DNA from: Candidatus Poseidoniales archaeon
GTDB lineage: Archaea; Thermoplasmatota; Poseidoniia; Poseidoniales; Poseidoniaceae
Assembly (NCBI GenBank): GCA_012959275.1
Contig: DUDM01000058.1
Location: 367-61,153, forward strand
DNA: 60,787 bases
Direction: 5' to 3'
Shown: positions 15,025 through 57,500 of the stretch, piece after piece
How the letters are laid out: each line of letters opens with the position of its first letter
Position numbering within the stretch: the stretch's first letter is position 1
Made by a program: the position numbers and the translations under genes
Notes under the pieces: model-generated
The model's input: only the letters and a program-made list of their open reading frames with translations
The model's database searches: none
Told to the model about the DNA's origin: nothing

Positions 15025-18000
15025 ATGATGGAGATGGACGCCTCGCGTATATCCTCCTTCAAGGAATTACTCGCTCAACGTATCCTAATCATCGATGGTG
15101 CAATGGGCACCATGCTACAACGCTATGACCTTGAGGAAGAGGATTTCAGAAACGATTCCCTCAAGGAGCATCAAATTGACCTTAAAGGAAATAACGATTT
15201 GCTTGTTCTAACAAAACCTGAAGTTGTCAAGGAAGTACATCTTCAATATTTTGAAGCAGGGGCAGATATTGTCGAGACCAATACATTCGGCGCCACAAGT
15301 ATTGCTCAATCTGAATACGGACTTTCCCACTTGGCCTATGAAATGAACTTCACTGCGGCTAAGATTGCACGAGAGGCTGCGGAGGAATGTTCTGAAAATA
15401 GTGGTAGGTCTTGTTTCGTTGCTGGTGCAATTGGCCCAACCAATATCACACTTTCAGCATCTGCTGATGTAGATGATGCTTCATCACGAGCCTCTACTTG
15501 GGACGAGGTCTATGCAGCCTATGTTGAACAGGTAAAAGGCCTGATTGACGGGGGTTCCGACATTATCTTGATAGAAACAATATTCGATGTTTTGAATTCA
15601 AAGGCAGCAATAAAAGCGACTCTCGATGTCTTTGAAGAACTTGAAATTGAATTACCGATTATTATCTCGGTTACTTTCATTCAAGAAGGAGGAGACCGAA
15701 CCGTATTTGGACAAAGTGTCGAAGCCTTCTGGGAGACTATTAGACATGCAAAACCAATCTGTGTTGGATTGAATTGTGGACTCGGCGCATCTGGGTTGCG
15801 AGGTAAACTACAGACTCTCTCTCGAATTGCTGATACAAATATCCACATTTATCCAAATGCTGGCTTACCCAATCCCCTTTCCCCTTCAGGCTTTGATGAG
15901 ACTCCCGAAATCACCGCTGCTCACATCCAACATTTGGCAAAGGACGGATTGTTGAACTTAGTAGGGGGATGCTGTGGAACAACCCCCACACACATCAAAG
16001 CAATTGCACAGGCAATGAAGGGAATCGCGCCCCGTGAAATCCCTACTCATGAACGCCTTCCGAGTTATGCAGGACTCGATACTTTTGTCGTTAGAAAAGA
16101 CTCCAATATGGTGATGATCGGAGAGCGAACCAATGTCACCGGTTCGGCTCTATTCAGGAGATTGATTACCTCAAATGACTTGGAAGCAGCCGTTGAAGTT
16201 GCAACAGACCAAATAAAAAATGGTGCGAATATACTCGATGTCAACATGGATGAAGGCCTAATTGACAGCGAGTTGATGATGACTAAGTTCCTCAATATTA
16301 TCGCTACAGAACCAGATATCTGCTGTGTTCCAGTGATGATTGACTCCTCCAAGTGGAGCGTTATCGAAGCCGGCTTGAAATGTGTTCAAGGAAAACCAAT
16401 TGTAAATTCCATTTCACTAAAGGAAGGAGAAAAGGAGTTTCTCCGCCAAGCCAAGGAAATCCGCCGCTATGGGGCGGCTGTTGTCGTCATGGGTTTTGAT
16501 GAAGAAGGGCAGGCAGATACAATTGAAAGAAAAGTAAGTATTGCAAAAAGAGCACATCAGTTGCTTATCGATGAAGCCGGATTCGACCCAACAGATATCA
16601 TTCATGATCCAAATATCTTAGCAATCGCAACTGGGATGGAAGAGCATAATGAATATGCCATCAACTTCATTGAAGCCACTTCTTCGATAAGAGAACAGTG
16701 TCCAGGTGCAATGGTTAGTGGAGGAGTTAGCAACCTGTCATTCTCGTTCAGAGGAAATGATCAAGTTAGGGCTGCAATTCATGCTGTATTTCTCAAACAT
16801 GCTATCGATGCTGGGTTATCGATGGCAATTATCAACCCTGCTCACCTAACCATTTTGGAAAATGTGGACCCTGAACTTCAGCAATTGGCAATTGATGTGG
16901 TATTGAATAAACGCGATGATGCAACGGATAGATTGGTTGCTTCTGCGAATAAATATTCAGGAAAGCAAGAAAAGAAAGAAGAAACTCAGCAATGGAGGAC
17001 ACTACCTGTTGAGGAAAGATTGTCGTATTCATTGGTAAATGGAATCTCAGAATTCGTAGAAGCCGATGCAGCAGAAGTTTTGGCAATATTGCAAGAGCCT
17101 CTGCAAGTTATTGAGGGGCCATTGATGGCTGGAATGGCCGTGGTTGGTGAATTATTCGGTTCGGGACAGATGTTCTTACCGCAAGTTGTGAAGAGTGCTA
17201 GGGTCATGAAAAGAGCCGTCGCTTATCTTGAACCATTCATGCAAAAAGAAGGTGATGTGCACAAAGGCAGAGGTCAAGTTGTTATGGCTACTGTCAAGGG
17301 AGATGTTCATGACATTGGCAAGAACATCGTAGGTATTGTTCTCCAATGCAATGATTATGTTGTCCACGACCTTGGTGTCATGGTTTCATGTGAAGAAATA
17401 CTGGCAAAGGCAGATGAAGTTGGGGCCGATTTCATTGGCCTTTCAGGCCTAATCACTCCATCTCTTGATGAGATGATGAGAGTGGCAGCAGAAATGCAAC
17501 GCAGAGATATGAAAACTCCACTACTCATTGGTGGTGCAACCACCTCAAGGCAGCATACAGCGGTCAGAATATCTCCAAAATATCAGCATGAAGTAGTGCA
17601 TGTCAAGGATGCATCTTTGGTATCTGGGATTCTTTCAAATCTCTTAGATGATGTCAGAAGGATTGAATTCAACGCTAAATTAGAAAAAGAAGAAGCACGA
17701 TTAACTGCACTTCACCAAAAGAAAATGTCTAACCCATTACTCAGCCTTGACAAAGCAAAGGCAAGGGCTCCAAGCCTAGTTTTTGATGATTCAACGATGC
17801 CAACCCCCGATAAACTAGGATTAGTAGTTGAAGAAATTAGTTTAGAAGAAGCATCAACATACATCGACTGGACTTTCTTCTTCACTGCCTGGCAGATAAA
17901 AGGAAAATATCCGGCAATTCTAGAGGATGTCGAAAAGGGTGAAGTGGCTCGAGAATTATTCGAAGATGGACAGGAAATGTTGGATAATATAATCGCTGAT

Positions 18001-18690
18001 AAATTGATGCAAATTAAGGCCATCAGAGGATTTTGGCCGGCATATTCAGATGGTGATGATATTCATGTCCAATCGACGACAGGGGACTCTAAACTTGGGA
18101 CATTTGTCATGCTGCGTCAACAGAGGGACCACTCAAAATCCTCAAATTATTCACTCTCAGATTTTATTTGCCCAGATGGAGATCATATTGGCGCCTTCGC
18201 GGTTTCGGTACATGGTGCTGAAGAAATGTGCAAGCAGTTTGAAGCAGAAAAAGATGACTATTCTTCGATAATGGCAAAAGCCATTGCTGATAGGTTGGCA
18301 GAAGCAAGTGCAGAATTATTACATTCAAGGGCCAGAAAATCTTGGGGATTCGGAGATAGTAATGATACCGATTTACAGACTCTATTGAAAGAGGATTATC
18401 GCTCAATAAGACCGGCTTTCGGCTATCCAGCCTGCCCTGACCATAGCGAGAAGAGATTATTGTTTGACTTGCTTGAAGCAGAAAACCATGGGTTTATTCT
18501 AACCGATTCATTTGCTACTTACCCTGCTGCTTCAGTATCTGGGATATATTTGGCACATCCTGAGGCTCATTATTTTGCTATTAATCGGGTTGATGAAACA
18601 CAAGTAATGGATATTGCTAGAAGAAAAGGAACTTCAAGACGTGATGCCGAGTATTGGTTAGCTTCGATTATTGATTATGATCCAGATTGA
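15025..18690 (+). CDS. metH: Cobalamin-dependent methionine synthase (MetH)
   Basis: A full-length 1221-residue MetH, close to the size of the E. coli enzyme. Module order: homocysteine domain (about 10-330; zinc Cys in G-L-N-C-G near 251 and in G-G-C-C-G-T-T near 315), pterin domain (about 350-620; [11 protein letters not shown]), helical cap and B12 domain (about 650-900) with the cobalt-ligand His762 in D-V-H-D-I-G-K-N, and the SAM-binding activation domain (about 920-1210; [10 protein letters not shown]). It transfers the methyl of 5-methyl-THF to homocysteine and needs vitamin B12. An intact activation domain implies reductive reactivation with SAM, whose reductase partner is not in the window. 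Two ATGs (15025, 15028) are possible starts. Confidence 0.96.
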
Positions 18691-18698
18691 AAACCTGT

Positions 18699-18743
18699 CG
18701 CGTGCGCGGCTGTATTGCTTTTTGATGTTCAGCGCACGCTAAG
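18699..18743. repeat. 45-bp hairpin element, copy 1
   Basis: A 45-bp sequence in the gap between metH and the convergent antiporter. It folds as an 8-bp outer stem (GCGTGCGC 18700-18707 with GCGCACGC 18732-18739), an internal loop, a 4-bp inner stem and a 7-nt apical loop, ending in TAAG. A second copy of exactly 45 bp is at 53626-53670, 35 of 45 positions identical. The differences lie in loops or preserve pairing in the stems. Possible roles are a structured RNA or terminator, or a small mobile repeat. Orientation is unknown; both copies are in the same plus-strand sense. Confidence 0.75.
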
Positions 18744-18750
18744 GTTGACG

Positions 18751-18772
18751 TTTTCGTTGCTTTTTTGCTTTT
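18751..18772. terminator. T-rich tract, probable metH terminator
   Basis: The plus strand carries several short T runs (TTTT, TTTTTT, TTTT) in 22 bases just after the hairpin element and before the stop of the convergent antiporter gene. Archaeal transcription ends at T-rich tracts without needing a hairpin, so this is a good candidate end for the methyl-cycle transcript. For the opposite strand there is no comparable tract. Confidence 0.45.
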
Positions 18773-18782
18773 AGTGAAAACC

Positions 18783-20480
18783 TCAACCCTCACTCGCTTG
18801 TGGCAACGGAACTTCGCCCATCAAGCCACTTTCCTCAAGAAGAATAATTAAGTCAGTGTCCAATTTCCATCTCAAATCATGACTGGTATGCTCAGAAATT
18901 AGACCTTGTCGTTCTGCATCATCAACTGCTCTTTGGCGAATCGCCAAAAGTCGCGCATCTAGTCTTCCTTGCAATCTCTCTTTGAATGATTTATCTTCAT
19001 TTAACTCCTGAAGTAATTCCTTGGATTCGGAGATTTGTTTCTTCTCTTTCTTGATTGCCTCAAGCAACTGTTCTTCAGGAGCAATGCCCATCTTATGCAT
19101 CCTCTCTAATTCAATCAATGCAGCCCCACTAGACATCAGAGTAGCAATTGCAATCTCGAATTTTTCACTATTACCATCAGATTCCTTGCCTAATCCCAAC
19201 TTATTCATCAGCGGAGTGATGGTCATTCCTTGCACAATTAGAGTGAAGATGACAACTCCCGATGCCATCAGCAACATATCATCATAGACGCCAGACGGTA
19301 GATTGGCCGCTACATCTGCATTAGGATGAAGGATCCATTGGTCAAGCAAAATTAGCATCAGTGCCAAAGGAATACTACCTCTTAGGCCACCCCAGAAAAT
19401 GACATGTCTCCAAGGCTTGGGGATGTCTGAATCAGGACTCCAGCGGGTAACCAATTCGCACATTGGATAAACTGCCAGTCTTGCTACCGTCGCAGCAAAG
19501 ATTCCAATGATGACCATGAAGAAGGCATTGGATGAAGGTGAAAGCCTATTCATCATTTCAAAGCCGATTAAGAGGAATAGCACGCTATTCATCAAGAAAG
19601 CAACCATCTCCCAAAAGTGGTCCAAGCCAACTCTTGCCTGAGGAGTCATCGCTTTCAACTTACCAATATTTCCAACCATCATTCCTGCCACAACTACTGC
19701 AATTACTCCGCTTCCATGGTAAGTTTCAGCCATTAGGAAAGAGCCAAATGCAACTGCTACTGTTATGGTGACTTCCAGTAAATGGTTGCGCGTCCATACT
19801 AATGCTTGATTAGCAGCAAAGCCAAATATTGCGCCGATAATTGAACCTATAATGACCATTTGAAGGAACATTAGACTTCCTTCAACCAAGATTCCTTGGA
19901 TACCTGTTGAGGCCCCAGATAAATCTGCAACAACTAATGCTGCCATTACCTGAAAAAGGACGACGCCTGTACCATCATTGTAGAGCGACTCACTCTCGAC
20001 AATGGTACTCAACTGGTGGGGTGCACCACATTCCTTGAATAATGCAAGAACACTCACTGGGTCAGTAGGTGCTAGGACCGCCCCTAACAATAATGCAAAT
20101 AGCAACATTTCTTGACGGGCATCCCAAACTAACCACCAAATGATTAGGCCAATGACAAACATTGATAGTAGCACAACTGGAACTGCTAAGAGAGTAGTCA
20201 ACCGCCAATTTTGTTTGAAAGAAGAAAATGATAACTTACTCGCTCCATCAAATAACAGTGGTGGTAATATCAGGTAAAGGATGACTGAAGCCGATAGGAT
20301 TCCAGATAATTCAATTTGAAAGAGGTTGTCAAATCTCGACATTAAACCAAGTATCAAACCCGCAATCACTAATGCAATGGTGTAGGGCATTTTGAAGCGG
20401 CGAATTACCAATGCTACCATTATTGCTAAAGTTAAGGCACCAAGAATAGGGGCAAGGGCCGAAGGTGGAACTGCGCTCAT
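18783..20480 (-). CDS. CPA1 (NhaP-type) Na+/H+ antiporter
   Basis: A 565-residue protein with about 12-13 membrane segments and a cytoplasmic tail of about 130 residues. CPA1 marks are L-P-P-L-L-F-D-G-A, A-P-T-D-P-V-S-V-L-A-L-F and the ion-binding N-D in E-S-E-S-L-Y-N-D-G-T, followed by the F-W-G-G-L-R-G-S-I-P-L-A-L motif. It is expected to exchange sodium for protons, which suits a marine cell. The tail is helical and charged (E-E-Q-L-L-E-A-I-K-K-E-K-K) and may be regulatory. ATG 20480 is preferred to the longer frame at 20513 because it gives a short N-terminus before the first helix. It is 61 bp downstream of the suf operon and co-directional. Confidence 0.9.
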   Translation of the reverse strand: MSAVPPSALAPILGALTLAIMVALVIRRFKMPYTIALVIAGLILGLMSRFDNLFQIELSGILSASVILYLILPPLLFDGASKLSFSSFKQNWRLTTLLAVPVVLLSMFVIGLIIWWLVWDARQEMLLFALLLGAVLAPTDPVSVLALFKECGAPHQLSTIVESESLYNDGTGVVLFQVMAALVVADLSGASTGIQGILVEGSLMFLQMVIIGSIIGAIFGFAANQALVWTRNHLLEVTITVAVAFGSFLMAETYHGSGVIAVVVAGMMVGNIGKLKAMTPQARVGLDHFWEMVAFLMNSVLFLLIGFEMMNRLSPSSNAFFMVIIGIFAATVARLAVYPMCELVTRWSPDSDIPKPWRHVIFWGGLRGSIPLALMLILLDQWILHPNADVAANLPSGVYDDMLLMASGVVIFTLIVQGMTITPLMNKLGLGKESDGNSEKFEIAIATLMSSGAALIELERMHKMGIAPEEQLLEAIKKEKKQISESKELLQELNEDKSFKERLQGRLDARLLAIRQRAVDDAERQGLISEHTSHDLRWKLDTDLIILLEESGLMGEVPLPQASEG

Positions 20481-20541
20481 AGCCCTTGAGACAACGATAT
20501 ACCACTTATGCATTGACCCTTCAGCGAGGATGCGGATGGGT

Positions 20542-53376: not shown

Positions 53377-53449
53377 GCCTGTGTTGCATAGCTGGTAGTG
53401 CGGCGGATTTGTAATCCGCAGGCCGGGGGTTCGAGTCCCCCCGCAGGCT
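53377..53449 (+). tRNA. tRNA-Thr(TGT)
   Basis: A 73-nt cloverleaf can be drawn: acceptor GCCTGTG with CGCAGGC (one G-U), D arm GCAT/GTGC, anticodon stem GCGGA/TCCGC with loop TTTGTAA (anticodon TGT, 53410-53412), 5-nt variable loop, T stem GGGGG/CCCCC with loop TTCGAGT, and discriminator T. No intron and no encoded CCA. TGT reads ACA codons and also, by wobble, other ACN codons, giving threonine. Immediately downstream, copies of the tRNA 3' end restart a tandem array. Confidence 0.93.
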
Positions 53450-53706
53450 CTTTGATTATTGGTGATATTAGCAAGCATGCTAAGTATCGCATTGCACACA
53501 ATGCTCAACCCCCGCAGGCTCTTTGATTATTGGTGATATTAGAAGCATGCTAAGTATCGCATTGTGTACAATGCTCAACCCCTGCAGGCTCTTTGATTAT
53601 GGATGATATTAGCAAGTCTGCTAAGCGCGTGTGCGTCTGCATTGACAAATAATGTTCAGCACACGCTAAGTATCGCATTGCGTACAATGCTCAACCCCTG
53701 CAGGCT
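53442..53706 (+). repeat. Tandem array that reiterates the tRNA-Thr 3' end
   Basis: The tRNA's last 8 nt (CGCAGGCT) plus the following CTTTGATT recur at 53513, 53583 and 53699 (the last two begin TGCAGGCT). This gives three units of 71, 70 and 116 bp and a partial fourth. Each unit has two hairpins: TTAGCA/TGCTAA and GCATTG/CAATGC (53489-53504 in unit 1). The second stem is invariant while the loop changes (CACA, TGTA, CGTA). Unit 3 is longer because it holds the 45-bp element. The gene-free gap 53450-53822 consists of this array, then two hairpins before the next gene. Confidence 0.85.
53626..53670. repeat. 45-bp hairpin element, copy 2
   Basis: A 45-bp sequence inside the third tRNA-derived unit. 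It is bounded by the direct repeat GCTAAG (53620-53625 and 53665-53670), exactly where units 1 and 2 have only one GCTAAG. It forms an 8-bp outer stem (GCGTGTGC 53627-53634 with GCACACGC 53659-53666) and a 4-bp inner stem CATT/AATG. Compared with copy 1 at 18699, stem pair C-G becomes T-A and two T-G pairs become C-G or T-A, while the apical loop is different. It could be an insertion, or the array could have lost it from two units. Confidence 0.75.
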
Positions 53707-53744
53707 CTTTGATTTCTGAAGAATTGGGTATTGTGTGTTGTCCT

Positions 53745-53801: not shown

Positions 53802-53822
53802 CGTAAAGTCAGAGGCTTGCCC

Positions 53823-56800
53823 ATGCGTACCAGAATTTTGATTGGACTGTTGTTTTTGACAGCAGCTTTTGCCCCACTTGCGACTAACCAAATCCCACTT
53901 GGAATTGATGAAGTTTTCACTTCAGAAACAAATGAGGACCCCCGAGAACTCACTAAAATTAATGTATTACCAGGAACACGAACTGTGAACAATGCAGGTG
54001 GCCGTGCCCCTTGCCCAACTATCCAAACCGATGCTGGAATGACCGGTGATGCTGGAAATGAGAGTAATACATCTAGACCTCTTGGACAAAACCCAACAAC
54101 CTCGAAGACCGGCTGTATGGATGCAACTGATAGTTCAGATTGGTATTCATTCTCCTATACCCAAGGCAAGGACATCGATATCGAATTAGTTGTTCCAGCA
54201 GGTGCTGATTTCGACTTATACTTGTACGATGATGCTAATCAATATCTAGCGGACTCTTCAGAATATAACGACCCACTTGAGAAAGTAACCAGTGTTGGCT
54301 CACAAATTTCAGGGGTTGCAGGAACATACTATATCGCCCTCTACATGTATAGTGGTGATGGAGGATATACAGTTCGAACTTGGACAAATAATTCCCCTCC
54401 TGCACCTGATTTACTGACTACTGCAATTACCTCCCCAAGCCGTGGTAATGCAAGCGACGTAGTGGATATCGCATACACAATTGAAAACAAAGGAAATGAT
54501 AACAGCAGTAATTTCAATGTAACTTTCATTCTATCAGAGGATGAAATATATGACTGGTCAGATACTCTTCTATCTCATGGAGAGAATCACACAAATCTTG
54601 GTGAAAATACCAGCCTAAACAATACTGCTACCATTACAATCCCTTCCACTCTTGCGAATGGCTCCTACCATTGGTTAGTTTGGCCGGATGCTTATGGGAC
54701 GATTACAGAAAAGAATGAATCCAATAATATGATGGCAAGCCCAGTGAAGATGACGGTTGGGGAATCCTGCGAAGATTTCCACCCAAGTGGACAAGATGAT
54801 GCAAGTTCAGGCCAAGATGCAGCAACAAATTGGAGTGATGTTACAACTGCCACCGGAGATAATTACACAGGAATGATTTCTGGGTGTATGGATGGAAATG
54901 ATGGAAATGACAACTACCGCTTCGATGTACCCATCAATCACGATTTGGAAGTTGTTTTGACTAGTCAAGGAGATGACAGAGGATACATAGATATCCTTTC
55001 CTCAAATGGTTCATATGTTGATTACGACTACTCTTGGAATACCTCCACTAAGAGTGCAGCAACCTCGGGTGGAGACTATGACGGTGATGGAGGCACATTC
55101 TTCGTCAATATCAGCCATTCAGAAGGAGCAGGGAACTATACTCTCGATGTATGGACCAACTATAGTGCTCCTGCCCCGAACCTATTCGTCGAGGATGTTA
55201 GCGGACCTCTTACATCAAACCCAGGGGATTCAATAACCATCGACTTTGATATCAGCAACGATGGAAAGGTTGACTTGAGCAATTCAGCACTTGTCAGTGC
55301 GTGGCTATCAGTAAGCACCGATTGGTCAGAATACGACCATGAAATTGGTAATACTACTATCTCATCAGTAGTTGTCAATGGTACAACAAATGGTCAAATC
55401 AATGGCCTTGTCCCTCAGGATATTATTGAAGGAAATTACAGCATCATCGTCATTGTCGATGGTGATGAAATGATTGATGAAGTAAATGATGATGATAACA
55501 CTGGAATAGCCGACGATCAAGTGCAAATCGGTTCAATCCCTTCAGGATGTTCAAGCCAAAATGATGCCCTATCTGGCGGTGATGCTGGTAATGATGCTAA
55601 TAATGCATATGACCTTGGCGCAGATGCCTCAGTTGAAGTCATCGGCTGTCTCGATAAAAATAGTGATGCTTCAGATTTCTACAAGGTAACTATGAGTTCA
55701 GGGATGGACATCTCTGCAATCCTAATTGTTGCACCAAGTTCAGACTTCGACTTGGAGTTGAATAATGCTCAAGGTCAATTGATTGGCCAAAGTTGGGGAG
55801 CGGGCAGCAATGATGAAGATGTTGCGAGTGATGATGGGGCTGGCGGGGTATTCTACATTGAAGTAATAGCCTGGTCTGATGCAGGTGAATACCGATTGAT
55901 AATCAACGATGCCAAAAATCAAGTCACACCAGTATTCACCTGTGGCCAACAGATGGACCTTGGATTGAATGGAGATGCCAGCGATGCTAGCAGTAACCCA
56001 ACTGCCTTAGGAGATAATCCAATGCAAATTGGAATGGGCTGCCTAGATGGCAACGATGTTGCTGATGCATATGGCTTCTCTTTGACAGAGCAACAGAATA
56101 TTGAAATCACCTTTTCACAAGATGGGGAATCAAACTTTATGGTCGCTCTTTACGAAGGAAATAATTTCATCGAAAGTTGGGATAACACTACTGCCCTGGT
56201 AGAATGGGAGACTCTTGGTACCGAGCGTGAAGGTACCGATTCATCCTACCGCATAGTCATCGGAGCCAATGGTGGAGTGGGCTACTACAACCTTAGCATC
56301 ACCACAACTGATGCTGCTGCTCCTGATTATGTAGCGGATGCAGTAAACTGTCCTATCGACCTCATCAGTGGAGAAGAGGGATACTTTGGCTGGGAGTTCT
56401 CCAATATCAATGGAGTATCACAAGGCCCAGTTTCATTCAGTATTTCTCTTCTTGATGAAAATAGTCAAGTAATCGCAGTTCTTTACAATAGTAGTGCAAT
56501 TTTGGATTCGAGTAATGCAGAGATGGAAAGCGGAAGTTCATCCTATGGATTCCCAGAAGCGATGGAAAGCGGGTCATATTCCTGCCAACTTGAAGTTGAC
56601 CAAGAAATGCTAATCGTTGAAGATAATGAAAGCAATAACATCATCATAGGAAATTCATTCAACATCACCAATTATTGGGACCTTTGGGCAAATGACATAG
56701 ACCAAGATGGATACAATACCACCGATACTGGCGATGGAATAGTTGATGCTTGTCCTGAATCATTTGGAGAATCAACGGGAGACGGATATGGTTGCCCAGA

Positions 56801-57500
56801 TATTGATGCAGATGGTTGGTCAAACGCTAACGACATCATGCCATTAGATGCAAGCCAATGGGTTGACAGCGATGGGGATGGCTATGGTGATAATTTGACT
56901 GGCACCGACGGCGACCAATGTCCAGATGTTGCCGGAGTCTACAATGGCGAAGGTGGACAAGGCTGTCCACTTGCAGGTGCTGTTGACACTGATGGAGACG
57001 GAGTCTTCGATGAAATGGATGATTGCCCAGAAACTCCTGTCGGAGATGAAGTAGATGTCAAGGGCTGTACAATTATAGATAATACTGGCAACAATAGCAA
57101 TGGCGGGACGGACCCCGGAAACCAAGGTGGCGATGAACCAGATGATGTCATAGATGAGCCAGATGATGGAGATGGTTCAGCCGAAGAGGAAAATGATGCC
57201 GCACTAGGAGATAATGTTCTCGGACTTTCTGATGATGAAACTCTGAAATATGGAATGCTGGGTGGAGCAATCTTAGTAGTTTTACTTCTCCTAGTTTTGA
57301 TACTACGTGGCCGTGGTGGCGATGATGATGAATTAGTAATCAATCAAGCATTCAATACTGGTTTAATGAATGGAGACCCATATGGTGGAGTAGCAGCTCG
57401 CACCCCAGAGGCTATGGCATATGAGCAGCAATTGATTGCTTCTGGATATGATGCAGCAACAGCAAGAGCATATGCTGACCACTATTTTAACAACCAGTGA
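53823..57500 (+). CDS. Large surface protein with PPC, CARDB and TSP3 domains and a C-terminal anchor
   Basis: A 1225-residue exported protein. Signal peptide about 1-24 (I-L-I-G-L-L-F-L-T-A-A-F-A). Then PPC-like domains alternate with CARDB-like domains: PPC about 60-190, CARDB 190-310, PPC 313-445, CARDB 445-570, PPC 570-700, PPC 700-830, CARDB 833-950. PPC domains show D-W-Y-S-F and Y-Y-I-A-L-Y type motifs; CARDB domains end near E-x-N-E-S-N-N. TSP3-like D-x-D-x-D-G units follow (952-1085), then an acidic linker, a membrane helix (about 1143-1160) and a cytoplasmic tail with Y-E-Q-Q-L-I-A-S-G-Y. The start ATG 53823 follows a TTG at 53817. It is probably an adhesin or a holder of surface enzymes. 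Confidence 0.85.
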   Translation: MRTRILIGLLFLTAAFAPLATNQIPLGIDEVFTSETNEDPRELTKINVLPGTRTVNNAGGRAPCPTIQTDAGMTGDAGNESNTSRPLGQNPTTSKTGCMDATDSSDWYSFSYTQGKDIDIELVVPAGADFDLYLYDDANQYLADSSEYNDPLEKVTSVGSQISGVAGTYYIALYMYSGDGGYTVRTWTNNSPPAPDLLTTAITSPSRGNASDVVDIAYTIENKGNDNSSNFNVTFILSEDEIYDWSDTLLSHGENHTNLGENTSLNNTATITIPSTLANGSYHWLVWPDAYGTITEKNESNNMMASPVKMTVGESCEDFHPSGQDDASSGQDAATNWSDVTTATGDNYTGMISGCMDGNDGNDNYRFDVPINHDLEVVLTSQGDDRGYIDILSSNGSYVDYDYSWNTSTKSAATSGGDYDGDGGTFFVNISHSEGAGNYTLDVWTNYSAPAPNLFVEDVSGPLTSNPGDSITIDFDISNDGKVDLSNSALVSAWLSVSTDWSEYDHEIGNTTISSVVVNGTTNGQINGLVPQDIIEGNYSIIVIVDGDEMIDEVNDDDNTGIADDQVQIGSIPSGCSSQNDALSGGDAGNDANNAYDLGADASVEVIGCLDKNSDASDFYKVTMSSGMDISAILIVAPSSDFDLELNNAQGQLIGQSWGAGSNDEDVASDDGAGGVFYIEVIAWSDAGEYRLIINDAKNQVTPVFTCGQQMDLGLNGDASDASSNPTALGDNPMQIGMGCLDGNDVADAYGFSLTEQQNIEITFSQDGESNFMVALYEGNNFIESWDNTTALVEWETLGTEREGTDSSYRIVIGANGGVGYYNLSITTTDAAAPDYVADAVNCPIDLISGEEGYFGWEFSNINGVSQGPVSFSISLLDENSQVIAVLYNSSAILDSSNAEMESGSSSYGFPEAMESGSYSCQLEVDQEMLIVEDNESNNIIIGNSFNITNYWDLWANDIDQDGYNTTDTGDGIVDACPESFGESTGDGYGCPDIDADGWSNANDIMPLDASQWVDSDGDGYGDNLTGTDGDQCPDVAGVYNGEGGQGCPLAGAVDTDGDGVFDEMDDCPETPVGDEVDVKGCTIIDNTGNNSNGGTDPGNQGGDEPDDVIDEPDDGDGSAEEENDAALGDNVLGLSDDETLKYGMLGGAILVVLLLLVLILRGRGGDDDELVINQAFNTGLMNGDPYGGVAARTPEAMAYEQQLIASGYDAATARAYADHYFNNQ

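Follow-up and report, generated by a model that had tools for sequence, protein, structure and literature searches.

REP and BIME sequences, together with their RAYT transposases, are short, non-coding, intergenic imperfect palindromes that occur in multiple copies and sometimes in arrays. Integron attC sites are hairpins conserved by structure and not by arm sequence, and their small cassettes are stacked in arrays. Elements that enter tRNA genes by means of a tyrosine recombinase (the SSV, pTN3 and pT26-2 types; PMC8371274) target the tRNA 3′-end and are bounded by direct copies of the tRNA tail. MITEs are small, gene-free and presumably moved in trans. Casposons insert at tRNA gene 3′-ends, with duplication of the target. 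The 45-nt repeated hairpin described here, designated H2, is like each of these systems in the respects listed, and it also differs from every one of them. Compared with REP/RAYT it has variable arms, a conserved loop, tRNA 3′-end targeting and few copies per genome; compared with attC it is 45 nt long, carries no cassette ORF and lies at tRNA genes. Compared with the tyrosine recombinase elements the H2 insert is only ~40–190 bp and contains inverted tail copies and a conserved hairpin. Target copies are present around H2; in contrast to MITEs, no fixed terminal inverted repeat common to the copies was seen, the arms changing while their complementarity stays; compared with casposons, H2 has neither terminal inverted repeats nor genes. 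It is best described as a miniature non-autonomous palindromic element, somewhat REP- or MITE-like and somewhat attC-cassette-like. No description of H2 was found in the open-access literature on Poseidoniales, and by comparison with that literature the family is previously undescribed. tRNA genes are classic landing sites of mobile DNA, and here they bear a minute, gene-free structured element.

Two copies of the hairpin had been reported in the initial annotation of the window (the whole 60.8-kb stretch of DNA analysed). Both were recovered, each 45 nt long, on the same strand and identical to one another at 35 of 45 bases. The first copy lies in the following setting:

15025–18690, + strand: metH, encoding B12-dependent methionine synthase (Pfam)
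18699–18743, + strand: H2 copy 1, in the gap where metH and the Na+/H+ antiporter gene converge (covariance model, E = 6.2e-15)
18743–18788, + strand: second, imperfect hairpin directly after copy 1, GGTTGACGTTTTC ... GTGAAAACCTCAACC (sequence, fold)
18783–20513, − strand: Na+/H+ exchanger gene, convergent, on the far side of copy 1 (Pfam)

The distance from the metH stop codon to the start of copy 1 is 9 nt. One arm of the hairpin at 18743–18788 (GAAAACCT) is found again at the metH stop codon, immediately before copy 1, and this hairpin is missing from the two closest relatives. The 8-bp outer stem of H2 was perfect in both window copies (GCGTGCGC/GCGCACGC in copy 1 and GCGTGTGC/GCACACGC in copy 2). 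Only three perfect 8-bp stems with a 24-nt loop were found, two of them being the H2 copies; this count is limited to the window, as N runs inflate the genome-wide total. The conserved 3′ half, GTTCAGCRCACGCTAAG, occurred exactly twice in the window against an expectation of 0.10 at ≤3 mismatches. The H2 repeat is real and not a product of chance. The compensatory changes that had been proposed for the two copies held for the outer stem, where a C-G pair is replaced by T-A with both sides changed; the inner-stem differences (T-G to C-G and T-G to T-A) are one-sided and count for little. The 4-bp inner stem itself did not stand, being 74% paired over 40 distinct copies, with one pair broken in 26 of the 40 and the rest mostly T-G. 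It was also absent from the minimum-energy fold computed for copy 1, and the inner stem was rejected as a functional helix on the pairing evidence.

The second copy lies in a tandem array at a tRNA gene, which was compared with those of other genomes, among them G005 (93% DNA identity to the genome of the window over the metH stretch compared). The features of this locus are:

53377–53450, + strand: tRNA-Thr(TGT), the 3′-end of which seeds the array
53438–53707, + strand: tandem array with four copies of the tRNA-Thr 3′-end (CCCCYGCAGGCTC) at 53438, 53509, 53579 and 53695
53443–53480, + strand: imperfect hairpin GCAGGCT - loop - AGCATGC, its 5′ arm being the tRNA acceptor end; perfect in G005
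53489–53504, + strand: small hairpin GCATTG-CACA-CAATGC in unit 1, with counterparts at 53559–53574 and 53675–53690
53626–53670, + strand: H2 copy 2, adding 45 bp to the third unit of the array (E = 1.3e-12)

The array consists of three units of 71, 70 and 116 bp, each beginning with the tRNA 3′-end. The third is longer by 45–46 bp owing to H2 copy 2, which is located 175 bp past tRNA-Thr(TGT) and has GCTAAG on both sides. In the G005 array H2 sits in a different unit, and G003 and G004 have no array at tRNA-Thr. An Rfam search of the window returned tRNA-Thr as the sole match above the gathering score, with none for H2. Directly after the array, 53817–57500 encodes a protein of 1227 aa that has internal repeats as well as CARDB and PPC domains, and the homologues of which are strongly divergent among members of the genus.

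Initial copies were collected by a pattern search of the genome to which the window belongs (G000, hereafter the own genome; 1.908 of 1.923 Mb covered by the analysis), and a covariance model (R1) was built from eight of them. This revealed 13 strong copies in the 1.92-Mb own genome (E ≤1.2e-9), all of them intergenic, the next match having E = 0.35. The four weakest matches listed for the own genome were also at tRNA 3′-ends (Tyr, Ala, His and Leu-TAG) and are probably real. A separate loop-matrix scan recovered the same own-genome set with one addition, at tRNA-Ser(TGA). Among 340 genomes of the class, 11 contained matches at E ≤0.001, namely five of the six in the genus and six of the 334 others. 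Outside the genus, H2 was confined to a single or a few species in each of four other genera, at no more than eight copies per genome. The element is thus patchy across the class, yet reaches up to 13 copies where it is present. A complete genome of another genus had no H2 at 30 tRNA loci, and a scan of GTDB contigs found H2 in Poseidoniales-type MAGs only; the H2-bearing genomes are all incomplete MAGs. The proposal of an undescribed repeated structured element was correct: the covariance-model search found many further copies in the genome and its relatives with the outer stem kept and covarying.

Some copies are themselves part of larger repeats. At G000:C51:10300-10570, away from any tRNA, two H2 copies lie in a 106-bp tandem repeat together with further hairpins (TTGGAAATGAC and TGATGCGTTTTACGCATC), and the G002 counterpart is a single unit. 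Two contigs of one MAG (L284 and L285; G136:C3 and C8) carry near-identical tRNA-Met arrays with ~160-bp H2 units; this is either a genuine duplication or the result of redundant strains within the bin.

Over the 40 distinct copies the outer helix was 97.8% paired, with two-sided changes at six of its eight pairs. The whole-structure covariation score was 0.367 compared with 0.193 in shuffles, none of 500 shuffles reached it, and sliding the stem partners abolished it. Orthologous copies differed in the same manner: at tRNA-Gln the arms are GCGTGAAC/GTTCACGC in the own genome and GCGCAAAC/GTTTGCGC in G001 and G004, and at the C61 locus they are GCGTGAAC/GTTCACGC in the own genome and GTGTGAAC/GTTCACAC in G005. 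The arms can have almost any sequence provided that they are complementary, and a loop core of approximately TRTNNTG....RTGTTCA is kept, which suggests that a folded strand or palindrome is recognised and its loop read. Of 314 outer-stem cells, 306 were Watson-Crick, one was G-T, four were A-C and three were other combinations. An RNA stem under point mutation normally shows more G-U intermediates. As the stem is nearly purely Watson-Crick, we favour a DNA palindrome, or a palindrome whose perfection is maintained by copying, over a classical RNA helix. Perfect palindromes can be maintained by hairpin-templated mutation instead of selection.

The main feature of H2, which the initial annotation had missed, is that it belongs to tRNA 3′-ends. 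In the own genome six of the 13 strong copies lie immediately downstream of a tRNA gene (Pro, Thr, Arg, Val, Lys and Gln), in a zone (36 tRNAs x 200 bp) that makes up ~0.4% of the genome. Of the 25 matches outside the genus, 23 are adjacent to the 3′-end of an intact tRNA, the tRNAs concerned being Arg, Tyr, Pro, Leu, Ala, Met, Val, Gln, Gly, Trp, Ile and Ser, and another adjoins a detached tRNA-Tyr 3′ fragment. A sense copy of the 3′-end of the same tRNA follows H2, on the H2 strand, in 28 of the 36 tRNA-linked copies, so that the polarity of the arrangement is conserved. This trailing copy was found in 12 of the 16 cases in which H2 has the same direction as the tRNA and in 16 of the 20 in which it is opposite. 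Exact direct repeats of the tRNA tail around H2 are common and measure 10–23 nt (20 nt for Arg, 23 nt for Ser, 17 nt for Met and 16 nt for Gln). The extra tail copy always matches the local tRNA and so is taken from the target. Inverted tail copies around H2 form hairpins composed of tRNA tail, loop and inverted tail; at the tRNA-Ala and tRNA-Tyr genes of the own genome an H2-like loop is placed immediately between the acceptor end and the inverted copy of that end. The control for inverted tails was within-sequence shuffling, a permuted-tRNA control being weak because of conserved T-loops and contaminating downstream arrays.

The tRNA-Tyr genes provided further observations. Direct tail repeats at +71 to +81 were present at tRNA-Tyr loci of several genera (C46:325-424 in the own genome, L219, L267 and L255), the complete genome G015, which is itself without H2, being included. 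The detached fragment (L272/L282; G113:C89, ~3.8–4.0 kb) consists of a tRNA-Tyr 3′-end with a hairpin array and H2 in the absence of a tRNA body, and looks like the distal end (attR) of an integrated element.

Whole units have been gained or lost between species. At tRNA-Val a clean H2-bearing insertion of ~99 bp, bounded by ATCAAACAAC repeats, is present in the own genome and absent in G005, and at tRNA-Gln G005 has one additional unit of ~102 bp. The arrays at tRNA-Asn and tRNA-Ser(CGA) occur in the own genome only. The arrays of tRNA-Pro, tRNA-Leu and window copy 1 are points at which synteny with the sister species breaks down.

On balance, these data favour H2 being the core of gene-free, non-autonomous mobile cassettes of ~70–160 bp that insert at Poseidoniales tRNA 3′-ends and occasionally elsewhere between genes; of the three options offered initially, a mini-mobile element was the best. 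Under such a mechanism a trans-acting recombinase, most likely a host Xer-like enzyme or a visiting tyrosine recombinase acting on a folded site, would do the cutting and joining. It would recognise the folded strand or palindrome, reading its loop sequence, and insertion would add, on the side of H2, a further copy of the 3′-end of the local tRNA. With one extra tail copy left per insertion, cassettes would stack into arrays. A simple attP-with-core model does not fit unless the target is copied, since every extra tail is that of the local tRNA. H2 copies at different sites were on average more similar within one genome than between genomes (0.75 and 0.68, respectively), as expected from spread within genomes, but ancestry confounds this comparison. 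It counts against the cassette reading that no autonomous partner, enzyme or excised circle was identified. There is no integrase gene inside the element, the spacer between tail copies being too short for a gene. Site-specific integration does not normally yield inverted tail copies such as those beside H2, and they are the part that simple integration explains worst.

A PF00589 search found an Xer-like tyrosine recombinase in every genome of the genus. According to a review (PMC8371274), XerA of Pyrococcus abyssi binds unrelated att sites in stem-loop form, with an affinity lower than for dif, and this makes an Xer-like enzyme a reasonable candidate. We propose only tentatively the stronger version of this reading, in which H2 would represent a novel type of recombination cassette devoid of genes. 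Such a folded hairpin, recognised by its structure and loop, would integrate at many different tRNA 3′-ends, copy the local tail in direct or inverted form, and probably be driven by the host Xer-like enzyme. If true, these archaea would possess a tRNA-based counterpart to the cassette arrays of integrons.

The main rival to mobile cassettes, alone or in combination with mobility, is template switching at hairpins. Under the purely mutational version, the units are immobile, hairpin-templated switching and tandem duplication make the tail copies and keep the stems perfect, and H2 is an old relic spread by local rearrangement. Hairpins of tail, loop and inverted tail do occur at many tRNAs without H2, the extra G005 unit at tRNA-Gln is a plain tandem duplication, and Watson-Crick-only stems suit template copying. 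What this version does not explain is the recurrence of one H2 loop sequence both at non-tRNA sites and at various tRNAs (Pro, Val, Arg, Gln, Met and Leu among them), and it accounts neither for the ~99-bp insertion at tRNA-Val nor for the patchiness across genera. We regard this version as unlikely.

The arrays could also be recombination sites that larger plasmids or viruses left behind on integrating at tRNA genes, with H2 as an accessory recognition site. The direct tRNA-tail repeats look like attL and attR, and the detached tRNA-Tyr fragment with H2, the synteny breaks at arrays and a tyrosine integrase beside tRNA-Glu are all in keeping with this. The latter, a second tyrosine integrase of the own genome and G005, lies ~1 kb past tRNA-Glu(TTC) with a 173-aa companion gene that has no Pfam match, and is apparently part of an integrated element:

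G000:C43:1684-2121 (L264): second tyrosine integrase, near tRNA-Glu at C43:3106-3182
G005:C88 (L286:4680-5657): second tyrosine integrase in G005

No H2 was detected at this integrase by either the covariance-model or the loop-matrix scan, H2 did not turn up in two pattern scans of 2.9 million viral contigs, and the direct repeats enclose only ~40–190 bp. An origin as attachment-site scars is rather improbable, and a viral origin of H2 was rejected on the empty pattern scans.

If H2 and the tail hairpins instead acted as RNA in pre-tRNA trailers or 3′ UTRs, for example in delayed folding, processing or the end of transcription, copies would be expected where many are found, downstream of tRNA or protein genes, and with a covarying outer stem. 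Such a role is doubtful given the mixed orientation relative to the tRNA (16 same, 20 opposite), the single G-T among the stem cells, the absence of H2 from most relatives and the lack of an Rfam match. For the first three of these reasons the other two initial options, an ncRNA or a terminator, are not favoured; an intrinsic terminator was rejected on the occurrence of copies in either orientation. A C/D-box RNA was also discarded, as GTGATG and CTGA-like box words are present in some copies only and are not conserved.

A REP-like palindrome moved by a RAYT (Y1) transposase would fit a short, multicopy intergenic hairpin at times in tandem, but is very improbable and largely refuted, because Y1 (TnpA_REP) transposase was found in none of the six genus genomes (57–83% complete) with control genomes positive, no fixed tag was seen in the arms or flanks (no GTAG/GGAG-type tag at the hairpin foot, the flanks varying as TAAG, TAGG, TAGA, TGAC, TGGA and others), and copies are concentrated at tRNAs. 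Cas1 family proteins and reverse transcriptases were likewise absent from the same six genomes (57–83% complete), and a casposon and a retroelement, respectively, were rejected on these results. The attC R-box core, RYYYAAC ... GTTRRRY, is absent from the H2 stem ends in the alignment of 40 distinct copies, and attC was rejected.

H2 is spread over many different tRNAs, copying the tail of each, in an abundant group of ocean archaea. If mobile, it would be among the smallest site-directed mobile units. Because synteny with the sister species breaks at several H2 arrays, a mobile H2 may mark or make recombination hotspots that shape Poseidoniales genomes. The hairpin itself is a concrete probe for finding the responsible enzyme.

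In the own genome, intron-containing tRNA-Trp, tRNA-Met and tRNA-Tyr genes were located at G000:C8:996-1182, C43:61382-61512 and C46:325-424, respectively, having been missed by a bacterial-mode tRNA scan. At its 3′-end the intron-containing tRNA-Met overlaps with a perfect palindrome of 15 bp.
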